Positions 113 to 63,054 of a stretch of DNA of 64,000 nt are shown in pieces. Numbering within the stretch: the first letter of the stretch is position 1; each line of letters opens with the position of its first letter. Made by a program: the position numbers and the translations under genes. Source of the DNA: a bacterium (lineage in GTDB: Bacteria; Pseudomonadota; Alphaproteobacteria; Acetobacterales; Acetobacteraceae); NCBI GenBank assembly GCA_026224825.1, contig JAMFRO010000008.1, positions 1-64,000 on the forward strand, read 5' to 3'. The notes under the pieces are model-generated. The model was not told the origin of the DNA, made no database searches, and saw only the letters and a program-made list of their open reading frames with translations.

Positions 113-155
113 GAAACTTCTTGGATGCGTTCTTAGGATGGGGGGTGTTCCCACG

Positions 156-349
156 AAAAAGGCTGGGGCTCCGCCCCTGACCCCGCTGGGGCCGCAGGCC
201 CCAGACCCCTGGACTTTTAAGGGTTTGAAAGGGGCCTGCCTCCGTCGTTTGTGGCGACTGGGTGGCAGGCCCCTTTCAAACCCTTAAGTTATGGGATCCA
301 AGGGCCTTTCGGCCCTTGGCGGGTCCAGGGCAGAGCCCTGGCCTTTTTT
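156..349. repeat. Multi-hairpin intergenic repeat, copy 1
   Basis: The block is bounded by an A5 run (156-160) and a T run (344-349). It holds in order a GGGGC/GCCCC hairpin, a CTGGGGCC/GGCCCCAG hairpin, a perfect 23-bp stem (218-240 with 264-286), a CCAAGGGCC/GGCCCTTGG hairpin and a CCAGGGC/GCCCTGG hairpin. The loop of the long stem holds a small GTCG/CGAC hairpin (244-247 with 255-258). The orientation is opposite to copies 2 and 3. It lies between the transposase tail and the convergent stop of the inositol monophosphatase gene, so a bidirectional terminator role is likely. This copy lacks the extra ACGCC/GGCGT module found in the second hairpin of other copies. Confidence 0.9.
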
Positions 350-7888: not shown

Positions 7889-8043
7889 GGCGCTTGCCCT
7901 TTCTTGTTAGAATAACGCCGATAGTCTCTCTTGCAAATGCAAAAGAGCGGGCGCAAGCGACCACCGCCTGTCCACGTTCCCGGCAACGAGGTTGCGCCTC
8001 TAGCCCCCCACCCGCCGCGCGTCAAGCTGGAGCGCGTTGAAGG

Positions 8044-8261
8044 AAAAAGGCCAGGGCTCTGCCCTGGACCCGCCAAGGGCCGAAAGGCCCTTGGATCCCA
8101 TAACTCAAGGGTTTGAAAGGGGCCTGCCACCCAGTCGCCACAAACGACGGAGGCAGGCCCCTTTCAAACCCTTAAAAGTCGAGGGGTCTGGGGCCGTCAC
8201 GCCGGAGGCGTGCTGCGCACGACGGCCCCAGCGGGGTCAGGGGCAGAGCCCCAGCCTTTTT
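8044..8261. repeat. Multi-hairpin intergenic repeat, copy 2 (full length)
   Basis: This is the most complete copy, bounded by A5 (8044-8048) and T5 (8257-8261). In order: CCAGGGC/GCCCTGG, CCAAGGGCC/GGCCCTTGG, a perfect 22-bp stem (8107-8128 with 8152-8173) capped by GTCG/CGAC (8134-8137 with 8145-8148), a CTGGGGCCGTC/GACGGCCCCAG stem enclosing two mini-hairpins (ACGCC/GGCGT and GTGC/GCAC), and a GGGGC/GCCCC hairpin. The right end is 4 bp from the stop codon of the Hint-domain gene. The 7889-8264 interval holds no gene; besides this repeat it only carries the rpsD leader. Confidence 0.93.
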
Positions 8262-8264
8262 CCC

Positions 8265-35879: not shown

Positions 35880-36806
35880 TTACGCCTGGTGCACCAGTTT
35901 CAGCCCCGGGCGCGGCCATTTCACCTCCAGCAGCGTGCCATAGCCCGACAGGGTGATATAGGCCGTACGCATATCATCCCCGCCGAAGCATATATTGGTG
36001 CAATAGCCTTCCGGCGCCTCATGGAATTCGAGCAGCTCGCCTTCAGGTGAAAACACCGTGATGCCGCCTTTAACAAGTGTGGCGACACAAATATTGCCAT
36101 TCTCCTCCACCGCCATGGAATCAAAACGGCAATACCCGCTGCCACCGCCTAAAAACTTTCCGCCATTGGGTGAAGGCCAAGGCGCCTTGGCCAGCTCACC
36201 GGGGCCGATCACGGGGTAGGACCATAACCGCCCTGTTTCCGTCTCCGAAACATAAAGCGTGCCGCCATCCGGCGAGAGGCCAACACCATTCGGCGTGATC
36301 ACCGGAAACGCCACCTCTTTAATGAAGGAGCCATCCAATTTCGCATAGAACACGGCACCGCGGTCCATCAGCCGGCCATAGCTCTTGCCATGATCGGTGA
36401 ACCAGAATCCGCCGCGACTGTCGAACACGATGTCATTCGGCCCTTTGAGCGTCACGCCGTCACATTTGGTGTAAAGCGTCACCACCGCCCCGGTGGCGAG
36501 GTCCACACGCTGGATGCTGCCGCTCTCATAATCATCGGCGCGGCCATGCGGGCGGGCAAGGCCATCCTTCGCATGCAGCCAGTTGAATCCACCGTTATTG
36601 CAAACGTAGCAGCTCCCATCCGGCCCTATGGCAGCCCCATTCGGCCCGCCGCCCAATGTCGCCACAACCGATTTCACGCCATCAGCCGCCACACGGATCA
36701 GCCGCGCCCCCTCGATCTCCACCACCAGCACCGAACCATCGCGCATGGCGATCGGGCCTTCCGGAAATTTCAACCCTTGCGTGACATCGCGCCCAGTGAG
36801 CTTCAT
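35880..36806 (-). CDS. SMP-30/gluconolactonase-type beta-propeller
   Basis: A 308-residue six-bladed beta-propeller of the SMP-30/gluconolactonase family, usually Ca-dependent lactone hydrolases. KFPEGPIAM at the N terminus holds the metal Glu. GPNDIVFDSRGGFWFTDHG and ITPNGVGLSPDGGTLYVSETETG have the Asn and Asp ligands. The substrate lactone is unknown. It lies next to, and is in the same orientation as, an SDR and a SnoaL-type gene, suggesting a small catabolic group. Confidence 0.88.
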   Translation of the reverse strand: MKLTGRDVTQGLKFPEGPIAMRDGSVLVVEIEGARLIRVAADGVKSVVATLGGGPNGAAIGPDGSCYVCNNGGFNWLHAKDGLARPHGRADDYESGSIQRVDLATGAVVTLYTKCDGVTLKGPNDIVFDSRGGFWFTDHGKSYGRLMDRGAVFYAKLDGSFIKEVAFPVITPNGVGLSPDGGTLYVSETETGRLWSYPVIGPGELAKAPWPSPNGGKFLGGGSGYCRFDSMAVEENGNICVATLVKGGITVFSPEGELLEFHEAPEGYCTNICFGGDDMRTAYITLSGYGTLLEVKWPRPGLKLVHQA

Positions 36807-36868
36807 GGTGTTTCCCCTTGCCTATGCGCTCAATAATAGCAGGCGATGGCCCGCGCCACCATCACCCT

Positions 36869-37723
36869 CTAAACCGGCTGCCAGATCGGCGCGCCGCGTT
36901 CCTCGCGCAGTGAGGGGATCACCCGGCCGTCGATATCGGTAATCCCATATTCCTGCGCCAGCTCGGCATTGATGAAGGTGCCGCCTGTCTTTTCCATAAT
37001 CTTCGGGTCTGCCAGCAGCGCCGCCATAACACGCCCGGGAAATTCCGGTGAGCTGCCGGCACCACTGTTCAGCGTGCTGGCCATGCCCGGAATCGTCTTC
37101 AGATTTTCCGTTGCGCGCTCGGTATAGGTAAACCCCTGCCACAGCGAAACCGACGCCACATTATGCGGCTTCAGCTCAATCGCCATATCCCGCGCCATAC
37201 GGTCCACCGCCGTTTTCGCCACACCGAAAATCGTATTGTAAGTGTAGCGAACCCCGACATAGCCGGAAAGCCCGATGATCAGCCCTGATTTTTGCGCCAC
37301 CATCATCCGCGCCGCATGCCAGGCCGCCACAAACCCCGCGCGCACACCAATATCGAAAATCTCCCAGTTGGAGATTGGCTTTTCCCAAAACGAGCCTGCT
37401 TGCGTCATCTCAAACGGCAGCGCAATCGCATTGTTCACCAGCAGATCAAGCCGCCCCTGCTCACTACGTATCCGCTCGAACAACGCCGCCACCTGCGCGT
37501 CATCACCATGGTCAACCGCCACGGCAATGCCCTTGCCGCCGCGCTTATCCACCTCAGCCGCCGTCTCGCCCACCGTGCCAGGCAGCGGATGCACACCAGC
37601 ACTCACCGTGCGCCCGGTTACATAAACCGTAGCGCCCTGCTCGCCCAAAACACACGCAATGCCCTTGCCAATGCCCCGGCTAGCCCCGGTTACAAGTGCT
37701 ACCTTGCCATCAAGCCTGCCCAT
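36869..37723 (-). CDS. SDR-family protein (DHRS1-like) with Phe at the catalytic Tyr site
   Basis: A 284-residue protein with the Rossmann motif VTGASRGIGKG near residues 12-22 and LLVNNAI at about 95. The catalytic segment reads YTYNTIFGVAKTAVDR: relatives have a Tyr four residues before the Lys, and here that position is Phe (TTC, read directly). A Tyr five residues before the Phe cannot substitute by the normal spacing. It may be an inactive, altered or non-classical reductase. It lies 3 bp from the SnoaL-like gene. Confidence 0.82.
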   Translation of the reverse strand: MGRLDGKVALVTGASRGIGKGIACVLGEQGATVYVTGRTVSAGVHPLPGTVGETAAEVDKRGGKGIAVAVDHGDDAQVAALFERIRSEQGRLDLLVNNAIALPFEMTQAGSFWEKPISNWEIFDIGVRAGFVAAWHAARMMVAQKSGLIIGLSGYVGVRYTYNTIFGVAKTAVDRMARDMAIELKPHNVASVSLWQGFTYTERATENLKTIPGMASTLNSGAGSSPEFPGRVMAALLADPKIMEKTGGTFINAELAQEYGITDIDGRVIPSLREERGAPIWQPV

Positions 37724-37725
37724 GC

Positions 37726-38250
37726 TCAGGCCTTGCCGAAGAATTTCACGCTGTAATCGCCATGCGCCCGGCCGGAAAAATGCTCGGCACTGAACGGCAG
37801 CCCCATAACACCCTTGGACCAGTCAATCGCCACACCAAAATCCTGGTACCAATCATAAAGCATCACACGGCTGGCAATCCGCCACGCCCCATCGCGCTTT
37901 TCCAGCACATCCAGATACCGCCCGCCCACAACAGTATCGCGCTCCTCCGTGCCAAAGTTCACGCGGTGGTACGAAATCACCTGCGTCTCAACCTTGGCAC
38001 TCTCGCCCTCAACCTCGATAAAACTCTGCCCCAGCACATGCTGCGTGCAGGGAATCGCCTCCGCCCCAGGCACCACCCAGGCCAGATATTCCGCGAATGT
38101 CCCGGCAAACACCCCATAGTCGGTCACCGAATCCGGCCAGTAAGCCCCCGAAATCAGCCCCGCATCCCGCCGGTCCTCACCGCGCGCCAGACGCACCAGA
38201 CAATCCCGTATCTTATCGCGCTCAACCAGCGCCCGCAGCTCCGCATCCAT
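37726..38250 (-). CDS. SnoaL/NTF2-like protein
   Basis: About 174 residues from the ATG at 38248-38250, which has GGAGG eight bases upstream. The frame remains open to 38445, but that extension would run through the copy 3 repeat. The core (VERDKIRDCLVRLARGEDRRD ... DYGVFAGTFAEYLAWV ... RYLDVLEKRDGAWRIASRVMLYDW) matches the SnoaL_4 fold of cyclases, dehydratases and ring-hydroxylating-enzyme small subunits. It is probably an isomerase, dehydratase or carrier in the adjacent SDR/SMP-30 group. Confidence 0.8.
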   Translation of the reverse strand: MDAELRALVERDKIRDCLVRLARGEDRRDAGLISGAYWPDSVTDYGVFAGTFAEYLAWVVPGAEAIPCTQHVLGQSFIEVEGESAKVETQVISYHRVNFGTEERDTVVGGRYLDVLEKRDGAWRIASRVMLYDWYQDFGVAIDWSKGVMGLPFSAEHFSGRAHGDYSVKFFGKA

Positions 38251-38338
38251 CCCATTTTCCTCCAATTTTGCCATAAGCCTACCCCCCACCCGCCGCAAGG
38301 GACTTGACCAATGCAGACAAAGGCACTGCCCGCAAAGT

Positions 38339-38558
38339 AAAAAGGCCAGGGCTCTGCCCTGGACCCGCCAAGGGCCATTGGCCCTTGGATCCCGTAACTT
38401 AAGACTTAAAAAAGAGGCCTGCCACCTAGCTGTTTCAAACAGCATGGAGGCAGGCCTCTTTTTTAAGTCTTAAAGCTAATGGGGGTCTGGGGCCGTCACG
38501 CCAAAGGCGTGCTTCGCACGACGGCCCCAGCGGGTCCAGGGCAGAGCCCTGGCCTTTT
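38339..38558. repeat. Multi-hairpin intergenic repeat, copy 3 (rewritten stem)
   Basis: Same architecture and orientation as copy 2. The outer hairpins CCAGGGC/GCCCTGG and GGGCC/GGCCC are kept. The central perfect 23-bp stem (38401-38423 with 38449-38471) has a quite different lower half, and the apical hairpin is GCTG/CAGC (38429-38432 with 38440-38443) instead of GTCG/CGAC. The T run at 38555-38558 overlaps the hpnJ stop codon. The 38251-38556 interval has no gene apart from this repeat. Confidence 0.93.
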
Positions 38559-45040: not shown

Positions 45041-46201
45041 ATGGTACCGTTAAACCAGGCTGTTACTGTAGCCACCTACATCTTGAAGCAGAAGCTGAAG
45101 GGCAATAAGCGCTACCCGCTGGTGCTCATGCTGGAACCTCTGTTCCGCTGTAACCTGGCCTGCTCCGGCTGCGGCAAAATCGACTACCCCTCCGAAATCC
45201 TGAACCAGCGCATCTCCGTGGCCGATGCCATCCTCGCCGCCGAGGAATGCGGCGCGCCGATGGTGGCGATTGCCGGCGGCGAGCCGCTCCTGCACAAGGA
45301 ACTGCCGCAAATCGTCGAAGCCTACCTCAAAATGGGCAAATACGTCATCCTCTGCACCAACGCGCTGCTGCTGGAAAAGAAGATCGACCTGTTCAAGCCG
45401 CACCCGAATTTCTGCTGGGACATCCATCTCGACGGCGACAAGGAGATGCATGACAAGGCCGTGGACCAGGAAGGCGTGTACGAACGCGCCGTGGACGCCA
45501 TCAAGCTCTCCAAGGCCAAAGGCTTCCGCACCAGCATCAACTGCACCCTCTTCGAAGGCGCCGACCCGGACCGCGTCGCCGGGTTCCTCGACACAATCGC
45601 CGATATGGACATCGAAGGCGTGATGACCTCGCCCGGCTACGCCTATGAGCGCGCCCCGGACCAGCAGCACTTCCTCAACCGCACCCGCACCAAGGAGCTG
45701 TTCCGCGACATCTTCCGCCGCGGCAAAGAGAGCGCGAAGCGCGGCAAGCACTGGAAATTCACCCAGTCCCCGCTGTTCCTGGACTTCCTCGCCGGCAACC
45801 AGACCTACGCCTGCACCCCCTGGGGCAACCCCACCCGCAACGTGTTCGGCTGGCAGCGCCCCTGCTACCTGCTCGGCGAAGGCTACGCCAAGACGTATAA
45901 AGAGCTGATGGACACCACCGATTGGGATGCCTACGGCGTCGGCAATTACGAAAAATGCGCCGATTGCATGGTCCACTCGGGTTTTGAGGCCAGCGCCGTG
46001 ATCGACTCATTCAAATCCCCCTGGAAAATGGCGAAATTCGCCCGCGGCATGATCAAAGGCATCAAAACCGAAGGTGCCATGACCAAAGACATCCCCCTGG
46101 ACAAAGCCCGCAAAGCCGATTTCGGCGTGTTCTCCAAACACGTCGAAACCAAAATGGCCGAAATCCACGCCAAGAAGAACGCGGCTCTGCCGGCGGAGTA
46201 A
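45041..46201 (+). CDS. hpnH: Hopanoid biosynthesis radical SAM protein HpnH
   Basis: A 386-residue radical SAM enzyme that joins adenosine to diploptene as the first step of side-chain formation. The iron-sulfur motif is CNLACSGC (about 36-43), preceded by LMLEPLFR. GGEPLLHKELPQIV (the SAM-binding GGE) lies at about 75, and a SPASM-like Cys-rich end is present (YEKCADCMVHSGFE). A 13-bp gap separates it from ispH, which suggests an ispH-hpnH operon. The TAA stop overlaps the edge of repeat copy 4. Confidence 0.95.
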   Translation: MVPLNQAVTVATYILKQKLKGNKRYPLVLMLEPLFRCNLACSGCGKIDYPSEILNQRISVADAILAAEECGAPMVAIAGGEPLLHKELPQIVEAYLKMGKYVILCTNALLLEKKIDLFKPHPNFCWDIHLDGDKEMHDKAVDQEGVYERAVDAIKLSKAKGFRTSINCTLFEGADPDRVAGFLDTIADMDIEGVMTSPGYAYERAPDQQHFLNRTRTKELFRDIFRRGKESAKRGKHWKFTQSPLFLDFLAGNQTYACTPWGNPTRNVFGWQRPCYLLGEGYAKTYKELMDTTDWDAYGVGNYEKCADCMVHSGFEASAVIDSFKSPWKMAKFARGMIKGIKTEGAMTKDIPLDKARKADFGVFSKHVETKMAEIHAKKNAALPAE

Positions 46202-46300
46202 GGCCAGGGCTCTGCCCTGGACCCGCCAGGGGCCGAAAGGCTCCTGGACCCCACCCGGATTAAAAAAGGGGCCCTAAGCAGGGCCCCTTTTTTAATCCGA
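46199..46300. repeat. Multi-hairpin intergenic repeat, copy 4 (short)
   Basis: Starts at the stop codon of hpnH with AGGCCAGGGC...GCCCTGG and CCAGGGGCC/GGCTCCTGG hairpins. It then has a perfect 19-bp stem (46256-46274 with 46281-46299) around a six-base loop TAAGCA, with yet another sequence. It lacks the apical hairpin and the second half of the element. Acting as a terminator for ispH-hpnH is likely; the dienelactone hydrolase gene begins 62 bp later. Confidence 0.88.
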
Positions 46301-46361
46301 AGAGCCCGGGAGCTACTGGCCCTCGAAGAAGACCAAGAACAAAGCCACAGGAGCCAATCCA

Positions 46362-47084
46362 ATGACCCGCCTGCAAACCATCCCCCTCTACCACGAGGGC
46401 GCCGACCTCCAGGGCCAACTCGCCCTCCCCTCTGGACCAGGCCCACACCCCGCCATACTGGTGATGCACAACGCCCTCGGCCTCGGCCACCACATGAAAG
46501 ACGTCGCCCGCCGCCTCGGCGCCCAAGGCTACATCGCCCTCGCCTCAGACATGTACGGCGGCGGCATCGTGCATAAGGATTCGGCCGGTGCCGCCACCTC
46601 CATCGTACCCCTCATGCAAAACCCCACTTTGCTACGCGCGCGTATCGTCGCCTGGTACGAACACCTGAAAACCCTGCCCGGTGTAGACCCCATCCGCACC
46701 GGCGCCATCGGCTACTGCTTCGGCGGCCAATGCGTGCTGGAACTGGCCCGCAGCGGGGCCGACGCAAAAGCCGTCGTCAGCTACCACGGCCTGCTCACCA
46801 CCGCCCAAAAAGCCGAACCCGGCCAGGTAAAAGCCTACGTCGCCGCCTACACCGGCGCCAAAGACCCCTACGCCCCCTACGACCAAGTCCAAGCCCTACG
46901 CGAAGAACTAATCACCGGCGGCGCCCTCTGGCAGATCACCGAATTCGGCGAAGTCTACCACGCCTTCACGGACCCAGACGCCAACACCACCCCCATCCCC
47001 GGCTTGGCCTACGACCCGCTGGCCGATAAAATCTCCTGGGCCGGCACACTGGCCCTGCTGGAAACCCTGGTAAAACAAGCGTAG
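46362..47084 (+). CDS. Dienelactone hydrolase family protein
   Basis: A 240-residue alpha/beta hydrolase. The nucleophile elbow is GYCFGGQ with Cys (about 111-117), as in dienelactone hydrolases, and the acid and His lie in TGAKDPYAP and EVYHAFTDP. The ATG has AGGAG upstream. Family members open lactone rings in chlorocatechol degradation, but no other genes of that pathway are here, so the substrate is unknown. It stands alone between repeat copy 4 and a lipoprotein gene. Confidence 0.88.
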   Translation: MTRLQTIPLYHEGADLQGQLALPSGPGPHPAILVMHNALGLGHHMKDVARRLGAQGYIALASDMYGGGIVHKDSAGAATSIVPLMQNPTLLRARIVAWYEHLKTLPGVDPIRTGAIGYCFGGQCVLELARSGADAKAVVSYHGLLTTAQKAEPGQVKAYVAAYTGAKDPYAPYDQVQALREELITGGALWQITEFGEVYHAFTDPDANTTPIPGLAYDPLADKISWAGTLALLETLVKQA

Positions 47085-47128
47085 GGCGGGCTTATTGTGT
47101 TTTGTCGCCACCACATTAAATTGTGGCC

Positions 47129-47341
47129 ATGAGACACACACGTACCCTCCGCACCGCTGCCCTGTCCGTAATCCTGGCCGTGTCCTTATCTGGCTGTGTC
47201 GCGCAAATGGTTCTGAACTCACAGGATCGTCAGCATTACTCAGATTACGTCACCCAGACCAATCAGCTCAATTTCCAGCGCGAGAAAGCAGGCCTAGCAC
47301 CTGACCCGGTAATGACGTTTGATCAGTGGAAGGGCCATTGA
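47129..47341 (+). CDS. Small lipoprotein, unknown function
   Basis: 70 residues from the ATG at 47129. The N terminus (basic, then TAALSVILAVSLSGC) is a lipobox with Cys at about residue 23. The mature peptide is short and polar and ends FDQWKGH. No family is recognised. It is 44 bp after the dienelactone hydrolase gene. Confidence 0.65.
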   Translation: MRHTRTLRTAALSVILAVSLSGCVAQMVLNSQDRQHYSDYVTQTNQLNFQREKAGLAPDPVMTFDQWKGH

Positions 47342-47426
47342 GCGCCTGGACGTTCCTGCTGTTCATACCCATCACGTCCACCTTGTAGGGCCGTCGAGGA
47401 CCGATGCGTGGCGTGAGTGCAAGTAG

Positions 47427-47444
47427 GGCGGGCTTCAGCCCGCC
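47427..47444. repeat. GGCGGGCT/AGCCCGCC hairpin
   Basis: A short perfect palindrome in the GTAGGGCGGGCTTCAGCCC form that resembles REP-like elements. It lies just past the stop of the RelE-type toxin gene on the minus strand. A second GTAGGGCGGGCTT half occurs near 47083. Confidence 0.6.
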
Positions 47445-47449
47445 ACCCC

Positions 47450-47743
47450 TCACAATATCCGGTCAACTGCCAGGGTATAAATCTCATCATCCGCCCGGCG
47501 CCCGACCGCGATGACGAAAATCACGATCTCCCGGTCGATCACCTGATAGACCAGCCGATACCCATCCTTGCGCAGTTTGATCTTGTAGAACCCCGCAAGA
47601 TCACCGTGCAATTCACTGCCCGGCACATGTGGATCCTGCACCAACTTGGCCAGCTTCTTCACGAATTTCTGGCGAACACTCCCATCCAGAGCATCCCATT
47701 CCTTCAACGCCCGCTCGTCAAACGCGAGCGCGTATTCAGTCAT
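47450..47743 (-). CDS. RelE/StbE-family toxin
   Basis: A 97-residue ribosome-dependent mRNA interferase-like protein. YALAFDERALKEWDALDGSVRQKFVKKL, LAGFYKIKLRKDGYRLVYQV and IVIFVIAVGRR are the RelE core, with basic residues in the second half as in active toxins. The ATG overlaps the antitoxin gene by 8 bp, a typical antitoxin-first operon. Confidence 0.9.
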   Translation of the reverse strand: MTEYALAFDERALKEWDALDGSVRQKFVKKLAKLVQDPHVPGSELHGDLAGFYKIKLRKDGYRLVYQVIDREIVIFVIAVGRRADDEIYTLAVDRIL

Positions 47744-51806: not shown

Positions 51807-51894
51807 TTCGAAAAAGGGGCATTGGAATACGTTACTCTCCCTCCACCCCAAAATAAATCTTAGGATGGGGGACGCGTGGCACGATCAAAAACTA

Positions 51895-51974
51895 ACGGGG
51901 GTCGGGGGCCGTCACGCCGGAGGCGTGCTGCGCACGACGGCCCCAGCGGGTCCAGCGCAGAGCCCTGGCCCTCC
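51895..51974. repeat. Multi-hairpin intergenic repeat, copy 5 (decayed)
   Basis: Only the GGGGTC...GGGGCCGTC/GACGGCCCCAG cruciform module (about 51897-51944) and a damaged terminal hairpin (CCAGCGCAGAGCCCTGG) remain. The long central stem and the flanking A/T runs are gone. It lies between the HNH gene start and the TPR glycosyltransferase stop. Confidence 0.85.
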
Positions 51975-62782: not shown

Positions 62783-63030
62783 GGTGAGGAAAAGGCCAGG
62801 GCTCTGCCCTAGACCCGCTGGGGCCGTCGTGCGAAGCACGCCTTTGGCGTGACGGCCCCAGACCCCCATTAGCTTTAAGAATTGAAAAGGGCCGGCCTCC
62901 CCGGTGTTTCAACACCTCGGAGGCAGGCCCTTTTCAATTCTTAAGTTACGGGATCCAAGGGCCTTTCGGCCCTTGGCGGGTCGTCACGCCGGAGGCGTGC
63001 TGCGCACGACGGCAGAGCCCTGGCCTTTTT
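62783..63030. repeat. Multi-hairpin intergenic repeat, copy 6 (rearranged)
   Basis: Opposite orientation to copies 2 and 3. The central stem (62877-62900 with 62919-62942, one mismatch) has a third lower sequence, and its apical hairpin is GGTGTT/AACACC (62903-62908 with 62911-62916). The cruciform module occurs once inside the GGGGCC hairpin and again at about 62982-63011, in place of the left arm of the last CCAGGGC/GCCCTGG hairpin. A T5 run ends the element. It lies between the convergent fpr and membrane protein genes. Confidence 0.92.
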
Positions 63031-63054
63031 CCTCACCCACACCCCAGCCCGTGC

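Follow-up and report, generated by a model that had tools for sequence, protein, structure and literature searches.

Mirrored arms of hairpin elements at gene ends spill into the genes and are probably kept alike by replication copying errors, not by RNA selection alone

Hairpin elements in the window

The window, the whole stretch of 64,000 nucleotides that was analysed, carries six related multi-hairpin loci, and all six places hold the modules that the initial annotation had described. It had also placed them at gene 3' ends, and for each of the six a codon-usage script calls one or more genes whose 3' end lies there, though one spurious call overlaps the third copy. A complete copy has the layout A-B1-C-B2-A', in which two outer palindromes (A and A', made of AAGGCCAGGGCTCTGCCCTGGACCCGC and its complement) enclose one inner hairpin on each side (B1, B2) and, between these, the long central stem, C. 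The nested elements are 184-245 bp in length and, like the modules below, are listed without a strand. In what follows, the genome that bears the window (4.27 Mb) is called the source genome, G-numbers are other genomes and L-numbers are loci.

Copy 3 (38339..38558) consists of A, B1, C, B2 with a D unit, and A'. Its outer module A (AAGGCCAGGGCTCTGCCCTGGACCCG, 38342..38367) is a hairpin with an inward ACCC tag and pairs with A' (GCGGGTCCAGGGCAGAGCCCTGGCCTTTT, 38530..38558; terminator-like on the plus strand) to form the outermost stem. In the module census the inner module B1 (CCAAGGGCC-ATT-GGCCCTTGG followed by ATCCC) occupies 38368..38393, and the central stem C (38399..38473) has perfect arms of 25 bp, A6/T6 tracts and an apical hairpin. 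In the loop of the inner module B2 (TGGGGCC...GGCCCCA, 38488..38529) lies a D unit of 28 nt (38495-38522).

Three other copies are complete. Copy 1 (154..347) has a central stem of a different subtype (GGGTTTGAAAGGGG) at 217-287 with 24 perfect bp, and copy 2 (8042..8262) has a perfect stem of 22 bp; at the site of copy 2 in the relative G050 the aligned flanks lie just 32 bp apart. Copy 6 (62783..63035) has the reversed frame, one mismatch in the 23 positions of its C stem and a D unit within A' too. Copy 4 (46195..46303) is partial, with A, B1 and a short C-like stem (46256-46299, 20 bp perfect) that is shorter and of a different type, and G014 has a copy at its orthologous site as well. Copy 5 (51888..51970) is a right half in which B2 with D is followed by A'. 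The long central stem that had been ascribed to the family is thus seen in copies 1, 2, 3 and 6, while copy 4 has a short one and copy 5 has none. Of the stem lengths first given, the 22 bp of copy 2 stands; copy 1 has 24 bp, copy 3 has 25 bp rather than 23, copy 4 has 20 bp rather than 19, and the single mismatch of copy 6 lies in 23 rather than 24 positions.

The position of the D unit (GTCACGCC..GCACGAC; window 38495-38522 and 62978-63013, L028, L153 and the G014 site of copy 3) varies within the A and B2 hairpins among copies, and its placement looks like independent insertion. For its resemblance to a CGTC REP the D unit was considered as one, a reading not adopted, since its layout differs from the description in the available part of PMC3733652, which reports none in Acetobacteraceae.

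Distribution of the family

The initial annotation had proposed a covariance search of the genome and its relatives, and 36 copies of C from the source genome were used to build the model for it. It finds 63 central-stem places in the source genome after the strands of 120 rows were merged (of 1440 candidates from the first look, 150 received a score); some of these are cut at contig ends, and the halves of one copy may count twice. Of 38 genomes in the genus, 14 have matches to the C model; of 150 in the order, 25 carry the A unit (at most one mismatch), and they belong to 8 of the 41 genera in that sample. Both counts of genomes include the source genome. At least 113 stretches from other genomes contain the exact 27-mer of module A of copy 3, and the names attached to them suggest that the source genome probably belongs to the Acetobacteraceae or to a group close by. 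A scan for A at up to two mismatches, single units included, gives 108 places in the source genome, 48 in G014 and 7 in G050, and the reversed control pattern was not found in the same scan. Rfam gives no match at its gathering score within the window. Among 50 elements of the source genome, 45 have both neighbouring genes called, and these sites are convergent in 27 cases, tandem in 17 and divergent in one.

The 63 central-stem places and the occurrence of the family at many loci support the earlier suggestion that the element spreads as a unit. Elements are also found at a junction: in G014 (L300, C95:19.7k) one element joins the right flanks of window copy 6 and of source-genome C63:114k, which lie far apart in the source genome. 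The left flanks of these two regions are on contigs that end in elements. The G014 junction is read as a rearrangement whose ends lie in two copies of the element.

Paired changes in the stem arms

The arms of the central stem change in step, as had been claimed. Within one copy the two arms differ on average by 0.17 of 22 positions and are identical in 30 of 36 copies, whereas between copies the left arms differ by 3.56 and the right arms by 3.51 of 22 positions, with a correlation of 0.98. The covariation test used the 34 distinct rows among the 36 genome copies and 500 shuffles. Standard pairs make up 95.0% of the cells compared with 88.4% after shuffling, and double-change cells number 78 compared with 27.5; neither value was reached in any shuffle (0/500 each). 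Pairs with change on both sides number 12 of 32 compared with 8.0 (reached in 2/500), but further pair types are no more numerous than in the shuffles (reached in 362/500). The paired variation of the arms is real. It is in part the replacement of whole stems: at 10 of 12 source-genome sites paired by at least one flank G014 carries another C subtype, so that interiors are either replaced as units or fast-changing.

Paired stem changes are usually taken as proof of a selected RNA structure. In that reading the stems would end transcripts or protect their 3' ends, and the paired changes would be compensatory substitutions kept by selection. The covariation, the position at gene 3' ends, the terminator-like matches and, in this genus, the A/T tracts of both arms are in keeping with it. 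Judged against the results that follow, we consider this reading unlikely as the explanation of the arms.

Terminator-like features

Copy 3 has terminator-like matches in A' on the plus strand, in A on the minus strand and in a short sub-hairpin of C (38446-38459) on the plus strand only. The 1-kb region around it holds four such matches, one of which is outside the element, compared with 0.9 (sd 1.1) in shuffled sequence. The initial annotation's bidirectional terminator thus finds a sequence match on both strands in the outward-facing A and A' tails of copy 3. Additionally, an A6 run is present at the base of the stem in 22 of 36 left C arms of the source genome. With bidirectional intrinsic terminators the elements share a GC stem, an A run before it, a T run after it and a place between convergent genes; unlike them, the elements are nested and reach 184-245 bp.

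It is likely, from these matches, that the elements serve as bidirectional terminators in this genus, where transcripts would stop at C and at those A hairpins that face outwards. In G072, a genome of another genus (g31), the C stem has T on its 5' arm and A on its 3' arm, the opposite of terminator polarity. Termination by C is therefore not general, and a central stem of this kind also speaks against RNA selection as the reason for the paired arms.

Mirrored flanks outside the element

The likeness of the two sides continues beyond the hairpins. Locus-specific sequences flanking the elements are inverted copies of one another on the two sides, with a mean local score of 21.4 compared with 9.5 for mismatched partners (0/5000 permutations) in 72 of 77 elements, five having been dropped for flanks under 60 nt. 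The own partner ranks first in 46 of the 72 (three genomes). An outer motif (TTCCGTGGAACACCCC) is common to some copies, and the permuted partners control for it. In the window, the flanks of copy 6 are mirrored with a score of 32.5. Among 68 elements at least 400 nt from the ends of their loci (9 of 77 dropped), mirror identity in the first three 10-nt bins is 0.82, 0.76 and 0.72, compared with 0.65, 0.62 and 0.60 for mismatched partners, and it falls to background by about 70 nt from the element.

The mirror includes genes. At 37 convergent sites the stop codons lie at matching distances from the element, with a mean difference of 6.8 nt compared with 14.0 (0/20000), and at 17 of these sites the distances agree within 3 nt, where 7.7 are expected. 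From the stop codon inward, the coding ends of the same number of sites are themselves mirrored (13.7 compared with 9.8; 0/10000), which pairing within a terminator does not require and which weighs against RNA selection. Flanks in tandem context are mirrored as well (28 elements; 20.7 compared with 9.7; 0/10000). A general mirror at convergent gene ends was considered and rejected, as none is seen in the coding ends of the 36 convergent pairs without an A unit that served as controls (9.1 compared with 9.2); these pairs come mostly from stretches of G050, with some from the window, and 4 of 40 were excluded for an A-type unit.

The same signal is found at 12 simple hairpins (20.0 compared with 10.8; 0/10000; own partner first in 7) and at 52 elements on loci from other genomes (15.4 compared with 10.1; 0/10000; own partner first in 16), a set that is partly non-independent, as the L114 flanks equal the G014 L192 flanks and L063 and L086 seem to be one locus in two assemblies. 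In other genera, 4 of 20 loci score at least 14 (L359, L375, L377 and L378, of which L377 and L378 share flanks) and 16 score at most 10.5, several of the 20 having no proper right end. In L377 and L378 (G163 and G126), the central stem is present in one genome and mostly missing in the other, as if deleted within the palindrome.

Most of the assemblies used are drafts, and short-read assemblers may fold back at palindromes and so produce mirrored flanks. In the source genome a known contig end is no more than 300 nt away at 13 of the 63 C places, and one strong case (L183) starts 75 nt from a contig start. The arms carry scattered mismatches, the signal persists in the 68 elements away from locus ends, and simple hairpins of 23 bp show it too. 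Furthermore, one of four loci in G072, a genome in four contigs, has a clear 17-nt mirror on a contig of 3.9 Mb. An assembly artefact is, in view of these, highly improbable.

Orthologous loci and an inverted copy in G014

In 5 of 13 comparisons of orthologous loci (L028, L249, L014, L342 and L004), the two near-flank arms of one genome resemble each other more than either resembles its counterpart in the other species; the 13 represent 12 source-genome loci, with mis-set edges at L001 and L342 and a marginal result at L004. Far from the element, none of the 13 shows likeness within a genome above that between species. These 5 of 13, like the 4 of 20 loci in other genera, make the mirror signal uneven and speak against the template-switch reading. 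In L028/L264 the flanks differ between species (0.65 and 0.65) and mirror each other within each (0.85 and 0.88).

A direction can be given at one locus. At C103:27.9k of the source genome the neighbouring protein ends in LPMAGMAMRAA, and its counterpart in G014 ends in LPMAGESQARWVARGTGQGSALDPLRATGP because the reading frame continues into the element. The best matches in three outgroups have the short tails GGAALAA (G021), GGAALAA (G018) and AAAQAA (G050), with no A unit within the 67 nt examined past the stop; in G021 and G018 CTCTCCCGCC directly follows it. The stop-plus-downstream sequence CTTGACTCTCCC lies beyond the element in both the source genome and G014, and in G014 an inverted copy of it (GGGAGAGTCAAG) sits in place of the coding end. 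The source genome, G021, G018 and G050 retain an ordinary gene end and G014 has lost the stop codon, a loss that counts against RNA selection. From these alignments the change is most simply read as an inverted copy that would have arisen in G014 and altered the C-terminus of the protein; the outgroups are best matches of 68-72% identity, and the gene has 39 matches in the source genome (many paralogues). A derived inverted copy placed by outgroups, as is described for template-switch loci, is thus found at one locus (G014).

The initial annotation had argued that repair or drift would not easily rewrite both arms in step. This argument is not supported: the flanks and the coding ends are mirrored too, and an inverted copy placed by outgroups has been seen. 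Taken together, the flanking mirror and the inverted copy mean that template switching from arm to arm suffices, so the covariation cannot be read as clean evidence that RNA pairing is under selection. The mirrored flanks are explained by template switching during replication and not by RNA selection alone.

Simple and nested forms

The basic unit of the family is a 23-bp hairpin (AAGGCCAGGGC-NNN-GCCCTGGCCTT) with A/T runs outside, which lies beside stop codons and looks like a bidirectional terminator. Module A occurs alone as a perfect simple hairpin, often near stop codons, at 11 places in the source genome, 5 in G014 and 1 in G050. Other forms include a short nested one of 75 bp (A-B-A') and, in the source genome, one element with three hairpins on each side.

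Simple and nested forms replace each other at six orthologous sites where both flanks match, and at two more with one matched flank; these sites are not a random sample, the loci having been chosen for carrying elements. In the source genome L144 and L014 (the left flank of the latter being about 470 nt from its expected place) are nested and simple in G014, L337, L340 and L342 are simple and nested in G014, and L004 is nested and simple in G050. L340, L341 and L342 were classed as simple hairpins by their coordinates. At the G050 sites of window copies 2, 3 and 6 neither form is present. With the direction taken from parsimony, these comparisons indicate that the nested elements are simple 23-bp hairpins that appear to have been opened up.

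The interiors vary. In the source genome the tip of C reads A..A in 12 and T..T in 5 elements with B1 on the left, and in 5 and 5 with B1 on the right, counting elements with a C match by regular expression (10 in the source genome, 10 in G014 and 2 in G050 are excluded by this). For source-genome elements with B1 on one side, the orientation of the tip agrees with that of the frame in 17 and disagrees in 10, and three have mixed tips. The C tip is thus present in both orientations, a spacer inversion between arms as seen at template-switch loci; in the available part of PMC8604942, spacer inversion is a known by-product of template switching. Among 40 source-genome elements with a C match, B1 is confined to one side in 30 and never occupies both, whereas 10 carry B2 on each side. 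Since the two sides usually differ in B1 and B2, simple folding and copying of the whole element does not account for it.

Relation to known repeat families

What defines a REP sequence is a palindrome with GTAG or CGTC as the tag on one of its ends, and repeats of the CGTC type are reported missing from Acetobacteraceae (PMC3733652, available part, for both). As in the GTAG and CGTC superfamilies of REP/BIME elements described there, the present elements are short palindromes with an unpaired tag, often in inverted pairs that can fold together, beside convergent or tandem and seldom divergent gene 3' ends, as in 44 of the 45 sites classed above. They differ in that the tag is ACCC/GGGT rather than GTAG or CGTC, that no RAYT, the Y1 transposase expected in or near families of the GTAG superfamily, was found in the source genome, and that up to three hairpins are nested on each side around a long central stem. 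With another tag and no RAYT found in the source genome, the family is not classed as GTAG or CGTC REP. Mobilisation by a RAYT/REPIN system was rejected: the Y1 transposase domain PF01797 has no match in the source genome (94% complete), and of 12 genomes tested three have one match each, with no A unit at those three loci.

MITEs have terminal inverted repeats, no coding capacity and many copies. The elements share the terminal inverted repeats, the non-coding nature and the copy number, and they differ from MITEs in that no clean target duplication was found, nor a cognate transposase in a search for Y1. As regards target duplication, the doubled 17-nt core is part of the palindrome where a simple A hairpin lies at the orthologous site. 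It may be proposed that a transposase acting in trans moved MITE- or REPIN-like units into the loops of terminator hairpins that existed before, and that the mirrored flanks are what is left of these hairpins. The unit-like spread, the conserved A ends and the G050 sites that are empty or simple agree with this, as does the mirror at simple hairpins. It is, nevertheless, quite unlikely: PF01797 was not found in the source genome, G014 or G050 (the search being limited to Y1), control convergent pairs without an A unit have unmirrored coding ends, and the L028/L264 flanks mirror within each species although they differ between them.

The upkeep of the arms resembles template switching in quasipalindromes, by which one arm is copied onto the other and spacers are inverted (PMC7202029, PMC8604942 and PMC8794818, available parts), and mutation alone can keep stems matched in this way (available parts of PMC8604942 and PMC8794818). 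The available parts of these sources deal with coding genes of yeast and with the stems of rRNA or microRNA, unlike the present bacterial family at gene 3' ends with overflow into coding ends. A search of the open PMC literature found neither this family nor any other set of 3'-end elements described as spilling into genes.

Proposed mechanism and its meaning

We regard as fairly probable, as a whole, a family of nested 3'-end palindromes whose arms are kept up by template switching, whose interiors are exchanged and which has a terminator-like role. A simple hairpin would be opened, with its core doubled and facing inwards, around B1, B2 and the stem C. The arms would then be kept alike mainly by DNA polymerase switching template between them, and ectopic recombination at the A hairpins that the copies have in common would carry whole interiors from one locus to another. 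Because A and A' also repeat each other in direct orientation, deletion between them may remove the interior and leave a simple hairpin again. A bolder form of the mechanism, which we hold to be doubtful, is that these are self-extending elements free of any transposase: template switching at a simple terminator hairpin would grow the arms outwards into genes, recombination through the shared hairpin would load the interiors, and the family would spread and rearrange genomes across the bacterial family without a dedicated enzyme.

Because the mirrored flanks include coding sequence, they serve as an internal control and indicate that copying at the DNA level can yield paired changes at many loci of one genome. 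This is a caution against claims for REP-like repeats that are made from covariation only. The elements also offer a natural system for measuring template switching and what it does to the C-termini of proteins.

Other observations near the elements

Three further stretches of the window were noted next to or between the elements. A stretch of about 130 bp (8-137) that stops just before copy 1 is 92% alike in G014 C41 and is partly found in C24 and C131; it is probably another repeat. To the left of copy 3, a block of about 2.4 kb (35880-38307) is missing at the orthologous place in G014, with the breakpoint at the element. Finally, a small region at 47060-47480 lies between two GTAGGGCGGGCTT motifs and is possibly another short repeat.
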